A DNA stretch of 31,074 bases from a virus. This document shows, piece by piece, positions 2,050 through 30,577 of this stretch. A program made the translations under genes and the position numbers. Every line of letters begins with the position of its first letter. Position 1 is the first letter of the stretch. Below the pieces are notes generated by a model. It searched no databases, was not told where the DNA came from, and saw only the letters and a program-made list of their open reading frames with translations. Location of the stretch: positions 1 to 31,074 of IMG/VR virus record IMGVR_UViG_3300046306_000001; one strand, 5' to 3'.

Positions 2050-2111
2050 AAAAAATAGGTTAAAAATAGGTAAAAAATAGGTTGCCTATTAAAAACCTAT
2101 TGAAAAAATAG
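2050..2111. repeat. Cluster of 11-bp phased ATAGG / CCTAT repeats
   Basis: Within an AT-rich gap, AAAAAATAGGTT occurs at 2050-2061 and 2072-2083, with a near copy between them (2062-2071). The ATAGG cores start at 2056, 2067 and 2078, exactly 11 bp apart. Inverted CCTATT cores follow at 2085 and 2096, again 11 bp apart, and a partial direct copy ends the cluster at 2103-2111. One core per helical turn suggests a cooperative binding site. It could be an activator site for the promoter at 1968-1998 or an iteron-like origin. Confidence 0.7.
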
Positions 2112-2195: not shown

Positions 2196-3179
2196 TTACA
2201 CAATTTTCCCATCTTTTATCATAATGTTTTCAACCTTTGATTTGCCGTTTTCAATGGTTACAATAGCCATCCCGTTGTTGTGCTGTGCAAATGGGTAATA
2301 TTTAGGTGATAATTGCGTCAAACAACCTGTGCTGTACGTGTGTATAAATTTTTTAAATCCGTCTTTTTTGATTGTGTTGGTTGTTCTGTGAACGTGTCCA
2401 ATTAAGGTATTGCAAAACGTTTTGTTGAACGTGCTTTGTGAAGGGTTCATCCCGCCTGCCATCAATTCATGGCCGTGACAAACCAACAAATCACCCATTT
2501 CCATGCCCTGCCAATCAGGAACAAATTTAATATCTAACACATCCATCCGGAAAAACTTATCAAATTGCATTTCGTGCAATTGGGCAAATTCCTCTGCCTG
2601 CTCATTCAAATATCGTTGATACCTGTTTTCGTGGTTCCCTGCTTTGAAATATATTGGGATTGTTGGGAATATGCCACGCAAGGTTTGCAAGAAATTACGG
2701 CACATATCTATTTCTTTTGGGAAATCACGCAGATCCTTTTCCTTTTCGTGTCGGCTGATGCTGTAAAAATCGAATGTGTCACCATTTAGATACAGGCAAT
2801 CAATGTTGCGTGCCTTCAATTCCTTAATTGCGCATACAACAGATTCAACCGAATGGAACGGAATATGAATATCTGATAAAACCCCAATGACCTTTAAATT
2901 ATCCGGTAATCGATCTGATGTGTATTCCTTCCCAATGGATGGTTCAATGCCAAAATTGTCTAATTCAAAAAATGTGGTTGATTCAATCTGTGCCTTTGGT
3001 AAATTTTCTAATTGTGACTTTGTGCGTTCACGCAATAAAATATTGTGATACCTCATTGTCTTACGCATCATATCAGCCGTAATGTATCCGTATGTTTGAT
3101 AATATGTTTCTGAAAAAGTTTTGATATTTAATGGTGATGAATAAAAATGATCTCTGATTTGATCGTGTTTTTTGCCCAT
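2196..3179 (-). CDS. Calcineurin-like metallophosphoesterase
   Basis: 327 residues with all five metallophosphoesterase motifs: D103-x-H105 (LSDIHIPFH), G133-D134-xx-D137 (NGDTFD), G181-N182-H183-E184 (AGNHENR), H235-x-H237 (CHGHE) and G261-H262-x-H264 (IGHVH). These bind a two-metal centre that hydrolyses phosphoester bonds; the substrate cannot be read from sequence. The first 60 residues (DQIRDHFYSSPLNIKTFSET) look like a separate helical, possibly HTH-like, domain. The gene stands alone between two terminators (about 3236-3268 upstream, 2118-2149 downstream), with a 24-bp dyad element 17 bases before its start. This makes it an independent transcription unit at the structural/early boundary. 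A role in nucleic-acid or nucleotide processing during infection is inference. Confidence 0.9.
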   Translation of the reverse strand: MGKKHDQIRDHFYSSPLNIKTFSETYYQTYGYITADMMRKTMRYHNILLRERTKSQLENLPKAQIESTTFFELDNFGIEPSIGKEYTSDRLPDNLKVIGVLSDIHIPFHSVESVVCAIKELKARNIDCLYLNGDTFDFYSISRHEKEKDLRDFPKEIDMCRNFLQTLRGIFPTIPIYFKAGNHENRYQRYLNEQAEEFAQLHEMQFDKFFRMDVLDIKFVPDWQGMEMGDLLVCHGHELMAGGMNPSQSTFNKTFCNTLIGHVHRTTNTIKKDGFKKFIHTYSTGCLTQLSPKYYPFAQHNNGMAIVTIENGKSKVENIMIKDGKIV

Positions 3180-23276: not shown

Positions 23277-24461
23277 TTAAACCACAAAAAAATCAGAACG
23301 GTTTTTGTATTTGGTATATACCCCATACCGAATTGCATCCATCAGGTGATTGTGTTTGTCAATCGGCTTATTTATAATCGTTCCATCCTTTAATTGTTCC
23401 CAAAAATAAAACTGAAATTCATTGTGCAAATTCTGTGATTCCATTGAACAGATTACCTCATGTTCCTTTAATAAACTAATTCCGGCCTTTATTGATCCTT
23501 CACCTTTGATTGCAGGAACCGCTAAAATATCCATCTGCCTTAATTCCTCAATTGATTTGGGTTCCGCTGATTCACAATAAATTATGTGTTCATTGATTTT
23601 CTTTTCTTTTAGGAAATCGGCAATATCCCGATTTGTCATTCCTTTTTTGTAAACAATTTCGTTGATATATAATTTATCCCCAACCTTTGCCAATTCAACA
23701 ATGGCCGTTGGATCATGACTAAATCCAAAATCCAATCCATAAAATACATCATCAAATTCAGGAAATTCAACCTTTGGAATGAATTGCCAATTAGGAAATA
23801 TTTGCCGATCACTAAACACCGCACGTTTTCCCTCACCGTAAACCCTCCAATAATCCGGATCTTTTGCCTTTAATCTTTCAATTTCTTTAATCAATTCAGG
23901 TGGCAAAAACTTATTATCTAAATACGTTGTGATCCACATATCGCAATCATCACGTGTGATGACCTCATCATAAATCCAATGCACCGGATCGGATGGATTA
24001 AAATCGCAAATCATCTCATCTGTTGTCCGCATTAATAACTGCCTGAAATCCTCATAATCTAACTCATTGACCTCATTGCAATAGCAGATATTCCGTTTCC
24101 GGCCTCTAATCTTTTGCGGCTCATCAACTGATAAAAATTCCACAACGTGACCGCCAAACGTATACGTGTTTTCCGATTTGTTATGTTGGCCCACATAAAG
24201 GATGCCCAAATTATGTAATATTTCTAGGAAATCACGTTGAACTGATCCCTTTAATGCCGGCAATGTTTTGCGGACAATTGAAATCACCAATGGTGTTTTG
24301 GATGATGTCATTTTGTAGATCAGATATTGACACAGGGCATAAGTTTTCCCCGAACGTGTACCGCCCTGATGAACTTTAATCCGCTTATTGCTGTTTAATG
24401 TCTGATAAAACTGAATGTTGCATTTCTGCCCTATTCGTTTTCGATTGTTGCCGGTGTCCAT
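23277..24461 (-). CDS. terL: Terminase large subunit
   Basis: 394 residues. The Walker A box is GGTRSGKT (33-40), and a Walker-B-like stretch NICYCNEVNEL carries the catalytic Glu. The nuclease domain shows GLDFGFSHDPTAI (first acid), YCESAEPKSIEEL (second, with E in place of the common D) and a final HLMDAIRYG (third). This is the PBSX/T4-like terminase plan: an ATPase motor that pumps DNA into the prohead and a nuclease that cuts the concatemer. The start overlaps TerS by 31 nt. The circular map agrees with either headful or cos packaging. Confidence 0.95.
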   Translation of the reverse strand: MDTGNNRKRIGQKCNIQFYQTLNSNKRIKVHQGGTRSGKTYALCQYLIYKMTSSKTPLVISIVRKTLPALKGSVQRDFLEILHNLGILYVGQHNKSENTYTFGGHVVEFLSVDEPQKIRGRKRNICYCNEVNELDYEDFRQLLMRTTDEMICDFNPSDPVHWIYDEVITRDDCDMWITTYLDNKFLPPELIKEIERLKAKDPDYWRVYGEGKRAVFSDRQIFPNWQFIPKVEFPEFDDVFYGLDFGFSHDPTAIVELAKVGDKLYINEIVYKKGMTNRDIADFLKEKKINEHIIYCESAEPKSIEELRQMDILAVPAIKGEGSIKAGISLLKEHEVICSMESQNLHNEFQFYFWEQLKDGTIINKPIDKHNHLMDAIRYGVYTKYKNRSDFFVV

Positions 24462-24796
24462 TCTATTATGGCAGATTCAATGCCGGTTTCATGTACAACC
24501 TCTGTGCGTTCTACGTATCCACGTTTTTTGCCTTTGGTCTTTAAATAAAATATTGTGGCCGTTGTATTGCCATCTTTGATTTGCCTGTGCAACTGCGATT
24601 CCGCAAAATCCAATGTCATATCGGCTAATGCATCAACTGCCTCCCGGTATGCTAAATCCTTTTGCATCCACTCGTAATGCACAGATCGTGGAATCTCTGT
24701 TGCCTTCGATGCTGTTGTCACAATGCCCAATGATTTTTCAAGGGCATCCAGCATCCGTTTTTTATTCAACTTTGTCACACGTGCATTCACCGCCAT
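24431..24796 (-). CDS. terS: Terminase small subunit
   Basis: 121 residues, helical. Residues about 14-50 look like a helix-turn-helix (RMLDALEKSLGIVTTASKAT, then IPRSVHYEWMQKD), followed by oligomerising helices and a loose tail. It should recognise the packaging site and present DNA to TerL, whose gene overlaps its 3' end. The preceding gene is the ParB-methyltransferase fusion, 3 nt away. Confidence 0.88.
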   Translation of the reverse strand: MAVNARVTKLNKKRMLDALEKSLGIVTTASKATEIPRSVHYEWMQKDLAYREAVDALADMTLDFAESQLHRQIKDGNTTATIFYLKTKGKKRGYVERTEVVHETGIESAIIEWTPATIENE

Positions 24797-28807: not shown

Positions 28808-29554
28808 TTAATTTATTTGTCCGTTTTCATCCAATGTCATATCCATTTCGGCTAATTGATAACAAAACAATTTGTATGCCTCCCCTTTACATTCTGCGAT
28901 GTATAATTTGTCATCAATAAATTTTGGCCTCAATCGTGTTTTAATTTGTTCACGATCTACATCAGGGCATACCCATATTCCAAATTTTACTAAAAAATCA
29001 TACATATGCATAAGTCCACCGGCTCTCCATTCAAATTTTTGCCCATTTTTTTCTGATAATTTTATTCTTTTAACGTATGAATTTACATTTGCGATTGCCA
29101 TAAACTTTAATTCATCATTGGTTGGAACCGGTTTGATTCTTTCGAGTTCAGGCTTTTTTACATTCTTTGTTTCCTGCCTTGCATACTCAATGTATGCGTT
29201 CATAATCCGGCCAAAATATTCACACGAAAAATTCTCATAACATTTGCAATCGGTGTTTAATTTGCCGGCAACTGCGTATTCAAATGCAATGGCTATTTCT
29301 TCGGGTGTTTGATTTCCGTAATTTGATTTGATAAATGCTAACAAAACATATTTTTCCTCATCTGTTGGCATATTTGCACCACGCAGGCCAACCATTAGCA
29401 TTGATAACCTTAATACCTGTTTTAAATCATTTTCAGGCCGTACACGGATGTTCTCTGTGCTTTGTGCCTTTATGATTAAATTGGCTGTACCCTTACCAAT
29501 TTCTAAGGGCTTCCATTCTTGCTGCACTCGTTCCAAGTTTTGTTTCTGATCCAT
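28808..29554 (-). CDS. Replication-associated hypothetical protein
   Basis: 248 residues from ATG at 29554 (MDQKQNLERVQQEWKPL). A longer start at 29617 would lie deeper inside the upstream gene and is less likely; even the chosen start overlaps it by 62 nt. The middle has a block (PTDEEKYVLLAFIKSNYGNQ, then IAIAFEYAVAGKLN and YFGRIMNAYIEYA) that I associate with a protein following the replication organiser in Bacteroidota phages. It may serve as a helicase-loading or primosomal factor, but no Walker motifs are visible. Confidence 0.78.
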   Translation of the reverse strand: MDQKQNLERVQQEWKPLEIGKGTANLIIKAQSTENIRVRPENDLKQVLRLSMLMVGLRGANMPTDEEKYVLLAFIKSNYGNQTPEEIAIAFEYAVAGKLNTDCKCYENFSCEYFGRIMNAYIEYARQETKNVKKPELERIKPVPTNDELKFMAIANVNSYVKRIKLSEKNGQKFEWRAGGLMHMYDFLVKFGIWVCPDVDREQIKTRLRPKFIDDKLYIAECKGEAYKLFCYQLAEMDMTLDENGQIN

Positions 29555-30179
29555 TGTTGTTGCTATTAAATTTATTTTTGTTTGCCATCCATGTGCTGAT
29601 TCGCCTGCTAATATCAAAGAATTTTTCGGATTGCCATCTTTCTTTGCCCTTTGAATTTTTTTCTGTCCAATAAGAATTGAAATTATTAAATTCAGTTCCT
29701 AGTGATTGAATGTGTGGTGACAACAGGTCACTAAACACTATTTCATTTACTTTACTTTCATTTTCTTTTATTTCATTTACTTTACTTTCCTTTCCTTTGT
29801 TGAACGGTCGTTCAACGGTCGTTGAAATTCGTTTCTCTGCGGATGCTTTTCCGGCTAATTTGCGTTGCTGTTTCATTCGGAAATATGGCTCTAAATAAAC
29901 CAACATTTTAGGTGAAAAGAATTTCTGATCTGTATCAACTTCAAACAATTCATAATTGCAAATTGTTGTTCTAATCTTTGCCTCTGAAACCCCAAATTCA
30001 TCTGATAATAAATCCAAATCATCCATTGGATACATCAAATCCTGTTGTTCCCTTAATGTTTCTAATAGCATAAAATAAATGCCATACCCTTCAACTCCTA
30101 ACTCCCTGCGCAATCTCCTGATTTTGCGATCATGCCGTGCATTACAGAAATGCGGAAAATAAAATGCCTCTTTGTCCAT
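29493..30179 (-). CDS. Replication organiser, DUF4373 (Lin1244/Lin1753-like) N-terminal domain
   Basis: 228 residues starting MDKEAFYFPHFCNARHD, then KIRRLRRELGVEGYGIYFML, the hallmark of the DUF4373/Lin1244 N-terminal domain of phage replisome organisers (winged-helix fold, residues 1-~105). These bind the phage origin and recruit host helicase. After it come a Lys/Ser/Glu-rich linker with short repeats (KVNEIKENESKVNEI) and a short C-terminal part ending TSAARMEALRNW. A terminator-like hairpin lies 10 nt upstream of the start, so this gene must be reached by read-through. Confidence 0.9.
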   Translation of the reverse strand: MDKEAFYFPHFCNARHDRKIRRLRRELGVEGYGIYFMLLETLREQQDLMYPMDDLDLLSDEFGVSEAKIRTTICNYELFEVDTDQKFFSPKMLVYLEPYFRMKQQRKLAGKASAEKRISTTVERPFNKGKESKVNEIKENESKVNEIVFSDLLSPHIQSLGTEFNNFNSYWTEKNSKGKERWQSEKFFDISRRISTWMANKNKFNSNNNGSETKLGTSAARMEALRNW

Positions 30180-30301: not shown

Positions 30302-30577
30302 TTAAATTAACATTGCACCTTTCAATGGCTTAAATTTAAACAGATTGCCATATTGCGGATGCTCCAATACAAATTTCCGGGCATACATAGGTGCAAAATT
30401 GTTGTTTACCTTGTATGGATCATTGTTAGAATTAAACGTATAATCGTAACGCATTGCCTCAAAAATGTATTTTGATCCTATCTGCCTGCGGCCCTCCTGT
30501 GCCATCTTTACTGCGATGGAATTGTACAACTCATAAATGTGCTTGTTGCTCTGATCGTACTGCTGAAAAGTTACCAT
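30302..30577 (-). CDS. Small conserved-type phage protein
   Basis: 91 residues. The C-terminal half (DPYKVNNNFAPMYARKFVLE, then HPQYGNLFKFKPLKG) has the K-x-NNN-x-AP-x-YAR-x-F pattern of a small protein family seen in many phages and mobile elements, whose role I do not know. The first half is helical and polar (YELYNSIAVKMAQEGRRQIG). It is the last gene before the leader with terminator at 30189-30230. Confidence 0.78.
   Translation of the reverse strand: MVTFQQYDQSNKHIYELYNSIAVKMAQEGRRQIGSKYIFEAMRYDYTFNSNNDPYKVNNNFAPMYARKFVLEHPQYGNLFKFKPLKGAMLI

Follow-up and report, generated by a model that had tools for sequence, protein, structure and literature searches.

The window analysed here, an IMG/VR virus record of 31,074 bases, carries its main genes on the - strand, and the order along that strand is a metallophosphoesterase (MPE) gene (2196-3179), a hairpin with a U-run, a cluster of short boxes, a promoter, an ORF of 36 amino acid residues, and the early genes. 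The terminator-like hairpin and its U-run (2118-2152, - strand; -15.3 kcal/mol, z -3.1) close the late operon; relatives have hairpins of different sequence at the same place, and a simple terminator scan found none in the gap because its loop limit of 8 missed this one. The promoter, judged by eye to be of the Bacteroidota type, reads TTTG-N19-TATGTTTG on the - strand, with the -33 element TTTG at 1995-1998 (by eye) and the -7 box TATGTTTG at 1968-1975; the -7 box consensus given in PMC9723704 is TAnnTTTG. The boxes do therefore lie in a gap between a terminator and a promoter, as the initial annotation had it. All on the - strand, the early genes encode the hydrophobic 36-residue product of the first ORF (1820-1930); p70, a small conserved protein with three predicted helices that looks HTH-like by eye (1424-1636); an ERF single-strand annealing protein (772-1452); p91, uncharacterised and predicted to be helical (30302-30577); and a replication protein (29493-30179, with a counterpart at L143:8730-9401). 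A unit GACCGTTAAATAAATAATT/GACCGTTARATAAATAATT adjoins the boxes (2031-2049, - strand, by eye), and the GACCGTTARATAAATAATT unit, which is found by eye in this slot in many relatives, is common to distant clades with and without the dyad described below.

The core of the element is a 37-bp dyad, AATAGGT-N4-AATAGGT-N-(G/A)CCTATT-N4-ACCTATT (2065-2101), composed of i) an outer AATAGGT box on the + strand (2065-2071); ii) an inner AATAGGT box on the + strand (2076-2082); iii) an inner inverted box on the - strand (2084-2090), which reads GCCTATT on the + strand and is ACCTATT in nearly all relatives; and iv) an outer inverted ACCTATT box on the - strand (2095-2101). The two inner boxes together form a central 15-bp palindrome (2076-2090), and the window adds to the dyad a fifth, promoter-proximal AATAGGT box (2054-2060, + strand) 11 bp from the next, which is replaced by a degenerate ACATAT box in L036, L045, L048, and L052. 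The repeats reported initially are thus real, and the inverted CCTAT cores stand where they had been placed, at 2085 and 2096, but the direct cores, given at 2056, 2067, and 2078, were off by one, with ATAGG actually at 2055, 2066, and 2077; likewise, the uniform 11-bp stepping holds within each set but not between them, since 2077 and 2085 stand 8 bp apart, and the five boxes accordingly make two opposed ladders around 2083 rather than one. When ladders are scored for any 5-mer with at least 2 G/C at 11-bp steps plus its reverse complement, the 266-bp gap scores 5, while dinucleotide shuffles of the gap reached neither 5 (0/2000) nor 4 (0/2000); shuffling the whole 31-kb window gave a score of 5 in 2/300, since in that version the position of the two ladders is free. 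For an 18-bp two-box pattern, allowing up to 3 mismatches, there are 3 matches where 0.32 would be expected.

Lack of conservation had been named at the outset as evidence that would count against a functional site; the four-box dyad is kept in 25 more IMG/VR contigs, whose flanks are unrelated. A strict pattern scan of IMG/VR gave 22 contigs and a relaxed scan 24; one relaxed match (L113) we judge unrelated, since it is made up of another repeat, and the relaxed scan missed L055 owing to a C in its centre. The total of 25 contigs beyond the window (26 rows) includes L258, L259, and the imperfect L296, and L003/L055 is the window's twin across this stretch. Grouping the rows by flank leaves 11 groups, window included, in which the box columns are identical in 10 or 11 of 11, except that the last two columns of the right-hand outer box reach 8 and 9 of 11; the flanks drift. 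In the search patterns, the inner palindrome and a single outer box were prescribed in one orientation, and the other outer box was left free; the free box is present anyway, with a match on both strands in 14 of the 22 strict and 21 of the 24 relaxed contigs.

The N4 spacers are runs of A or T, and in all 26 rows, single letters aside, both spacers carry their A run on the same strand (13 T-type, 13 A-type). The element occurs in both orientations, the L050 copy being the exact reverse complement of the L038 copy. A perfect 37-bp palindrome, in which the two runs would be opposite, was never seen among the 26 rows, an absence which suggests that long perfect palindromes may be selected against.

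Presence of the element is patchy. A protein search with the MPE returned 33 loci, and the element lies 3′ of the MPE in 9 of these (L003, L013, L022-L024, L028-L030, and L034); two contigs (L006 and L021) end inside the slot, L014 has an insert there, and the remainder are without it. In close relatives lacking the element the absence is clean, the T-run of the hairpin leading directly or nearly so into (T)GACCGTTAAATAA, the sequence that comes after the last box in the window. The palindrome at 0-1 mismatch occurs once per record in 20 carriers and not at all in 14 non-carriers. Wherever gene order is readable the element stands after the late-operon terminator and before the early promoter, and carriers with near-identical elements differ in their first downstream gene. 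Most of the phage family is without it, so the early promoter does not in itself require the element. On an MPE tree of 134 rows (12 with an inserted ORF being left out of the counts), 17 carriers among 122 rows require at least 11 changes, compared with a mean of 16.2 in 300 label shuffles, and the window clade, with 9 carriers among 29 rows, requires 5; the element is thus inherited briefly but often gained or lost, along what is a tree of the neighbourhood rather than of genomes, since the MPE is one gene and phages recombine.

All element-bearing sequences are uncultivated contigs. Searches of cultured phages (BLASTN and tblastn) turned up neither a near relative nor a convincing copy of the element, two three-box patterns went unmatched in a collection of genomes from 84,980 species, nothing in Rfam rose above threshold, and the element was not found in print among open-licence PMC papers. 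A scan of viral contigs for direct ladders yielded 63 stretches; the 62 listed are mostly unrelated tandem repeats.

The distance from dyad centre to -7 box is not fixed: by script it is 74, 75, 83, 83, 84, 85, 86, 97, 97, 99, 106, and 108 bp in 12 rows (taking, where there were several -7 candidates, the one adjoining the first gene), and by eye 84 bp in L037. A helical-phase test at 10.5 bp gave 0.005 for the 13 values and 0.046 for 8 values (one per class), a signal that is suggestive only, because the rows share descent and the slot roughly fixes position.

A site that is strongly conserved in some members of a family and cleanly missing from close relatives looks like an exchangeable docking site. 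We think that the element is probably an optional, exchangeable operator of the early promoter, serving a DNA-binding protein that is dimeric or forms oligomers; both the binding and its effect on transcription are what we infer from the sequence comparisons. The proposal made initially of a helically phased, putative protein site upstream of the early (recombination) promoter gains from the conservation of the boxes, but the binders it named do not fare as well (see below). We envisage that the 7-bp box AATAGGT would be recognised by a protein acting as a dimer or higher oligomer; that two copies would meet at the central 15-bp palindrome and further copies be added outward, one per helical turn; that the outcome would be a nucleoprotein complex of 4 to 5 boxes, immediately past the late terminator and some 75-110 bp ahead of the -7 box; that this complex would tune transcription of the early genes; and that the operator is exchangeable, being acquired, lost, or supplanted by other arrays of boxes within the slot. 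Because the site lies upstream of the promoter without overlapping it, we lean slightly toward activation or architectural bending over repression. On this reading, a phage group of flavobacterial type found only in metagenomes would possess a precise regulatory site, and near-identical phages with and without it offer a natural comparison.

Which protein might bind? The replication protein, with its DUF4373/Lin1244-type N-domain, and the MPE had both been suggested, and since neither tracks presence of the element, both fail as determinants of the site. The Lin1244-type N-domain occurs in 7/20 carriers and 4/14 non-carriers, an alternative N-domain in 8/20 and 6/14, and neither type in 5/20 and 4/14; the two kinds of replication protein have only their C-terminal part in common, the N-terminal domain being swapped between relatives. 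The MPE is present in 14/14 non-carriers but has no match in 5 of the 20 carrier records (G033, G034, G035, G036, and G043, of which G035 is 36 kb, G036 is 32 kb, and the others shorter). A partner search across the 20 carriers and 14 non-carriers is confounded by kinship and was therefore repeated within the window clade (8 carriers against 14 non-carriers), where none of about 200 clusters separates the two classes (best P ~0.04, mostly antisense ORFs). Several individual candidates were set aside: i) the alternative initiator, in 4/8 carriers against 1/14 non-carriers at 60% identity, was removed by the 34-record count; ii) p91 is, with DUF3310, one of the only genes found in 11/11 long carriers, but it is present in non-carriers too (for example L025 and L020); iii) p70 is near-identical in carrier L023 and non-carrier L025; and iv) a Cro/C1-type HTH early protein of L143 belongs to a family that is commoner in non-carriers (3 carriers, 9 non-carriers). 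No PDB match was found for p70 at E <=0.001, and no fold match for p91. For p70 there were 174 ORF hits over the loci searched (which overlap) and weak integrase matches in PHROG (best E 0.0084); by eye it contains what we take to be a resemblance to the LN..GI..P...W stretch of large serine recombinases. As no phage gene family tracks the element, and p70 and p91 are without fold matches, a host binder is as likely as a phage one.

One particular form of the operator reading would have a PhoB/OmpR-like regulator of the host bind the element, tying early transcription to the state of the host. The 7+4 unit is the size of the Pho box unit as given in PMC2648988, and a host binder would be expected to leave no phage gene tracking the site, as is found; but the element is a dyad of opposed tandems rather than a single tandem, and the three-box dyad pattern had gone unmatched in the collection of 84,980 species, so that we regard this specific assignment as unlikely.

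The initial annotation also considered an iteron-type replication origin, at which an initiator would bind the boxes and open the adjoining AT-rich stretch. The setting is suitable: the tandem boxes occupy a non-coding gap in the early region, next to AT-rich sequence, and there is an initiator-like gene among the early genes. The type of initiator N-domain, however, does not track the element (an indirect test), four non-carriers (G004, G009, G014, and G016) have the same Lin1244 N-domain at 92-99%, and close relatives lack the site with no second copy elsewhere in their sequence examined. This clean absence weakens the idea, although origins can move, and we consider it distinctly unlikely. 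GC skew, a check suggested at the outset, is monotonic with no turn at the element, which says little about an origin because all the genes lie on one strand.

Patchy presence in both orientations would also be expected of a neutral passenger, a short recombining module with no regulatory function in a recombination-prone slot, and in several relatives a homing-endonuclease-like ORF is inserted beside that slot. Yet the box columns are invariant between phages whose MPEs are only ~54-66% identical to the window's, implying constraint unless all of the transfers were recent, and no target duplication was seen; we hold this explanation to be improbable. Least credible of all is that phased A/T tracts act by intrinsic curvature as an upstream promoter element with no specific protein, for although every copy repeats its A4/T4 runs at 11-bp intervals, the invariant part is the GC-containing boxes, and with an offset of 8 bp between the arms of the dyad the two pairs of tracts fall out of phase (by eye).

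Returning to the optional operator, the same slot is occupied in relatives by other box arrays, recognised by eye. These include GTACGT boxes at 12-bp steps (L040, L043, and L269); a TAGGGA-N5-TAGGGAGTACTCCCTA dyad in L047, with related palindromes in L049 and L050 (GGGAGTACTCCC), L042 (GGGGTACTCCC), and L057 (GGGAGTACTCCC-like); three ATGTCTAAA boxes in L215 but none in L216, L218, or L222; and TTGCACAGAAACGCAATA in the slots of L018, L025, and L026. L043 holds two arrays and its close relatives L261-L267 none. Across 83 non-redundant slots the 11-bp signal is 34 against 0.83 expected, and is traceable to the 10 dyad-bearing slots; in the 73 non-redundant slots without the dyad it is gone (2 against 0.6 expected), so that the case for phased arrays being general to the slot rests on few examples. 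A 12-bp signal in the 73 dyad-free slots (9 against 0.64 expected) has its source in the GTACGT and ATGTCTAAA arrays, and a 10-bp signal mostly reflects the repeated TTTGAAATTGTTTG promoter stretch.

We wish to raise, tentatively and as a rather doubtful extension, the idea that the slot is a docking place for operator cassettes (the ATAGGT dyad, the GTACGT ladder, the TAGGGA dyad, the ATGTCTAAA triplet, and others), swapped either way round and at times as a tandem pair, which would re-wire the first genes to different host or phage regulators while leaving coding sequence untouched; if so, these phages would change how their first genes are regulated through exchange of short cis-elements, and not of genes alone. 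The homing-endonuclease-like ORF (MEIWK..., NUMOD4-like by eye) lies directly 3′ of the MPE stop at L317:4085-4576 and has a conserved leader, GCAACTGC...GTTGCAG; a similar leader or ORF follows the MPE stop in L014, L219, L220, L238, L239, L252, L283-L285, L292, L310, L314-L316, L320, and L322. An ORF of this kind could drive exchange of the neighbouring slot.

Six unrelated phages (L099, L114, L105, L110, L117, and L076) have three ATAGGT boxes at 11 bp (ATAGGT-N5), some with an inverted partner. By eye an HNH or terminase-like gene lies near each of these arrays, and Pfam places only three HNH matches above the cut-off, with two terminase fragments below it and none for L076; the arrays are possibly packaging sites. 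We have set aside such a reading for the window's own element, because the terminase genes (23277-24796) are far away.

How does the element compare with known arrays? Iteron origins likewise have tandem boxes beside AT-rich DNA, but the element differs from them in being optional, mirror-symmetric, and independent of the initiator. The ParR/parC centromere arrays, too, have tandem boxes near a promoter, spaced by about one turn; no ParM or ParR gene was recognised in the phage by the general searches. An excisionase-like family was absent from the first 25 of 50 Pfam families for 91 early proteins. The operators of the Apl protein of coliphage 186 are 6-bp direct repeats spaced 10-11 bp apart between early promoters, with cooperative binding and bending (PMC7498355). 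Like the arrays of Apl and of the recombination directionality factors Cox/Xis, the element has direct repeats about one helical turn apart, with 11-bp steps in each arm; unlike the Apl sites, which are direct repeats of a single polarity, its two ladders face each other around the 15-bp palindrome. The Pho box has an 11-bp unit made up of a 7-bp box and a less conserved 4-bp segment, again according to PMC2648988, and the element resembles it in repeating AATAGGT + N4 in tandem; its box is different, however, and it is a dyad rather than a single-polarity array, at a phage rather than a host promoter. By analogy of geometry, the element would appear closest to the Apl-type operators and the Pho box, while being a member of neither class.
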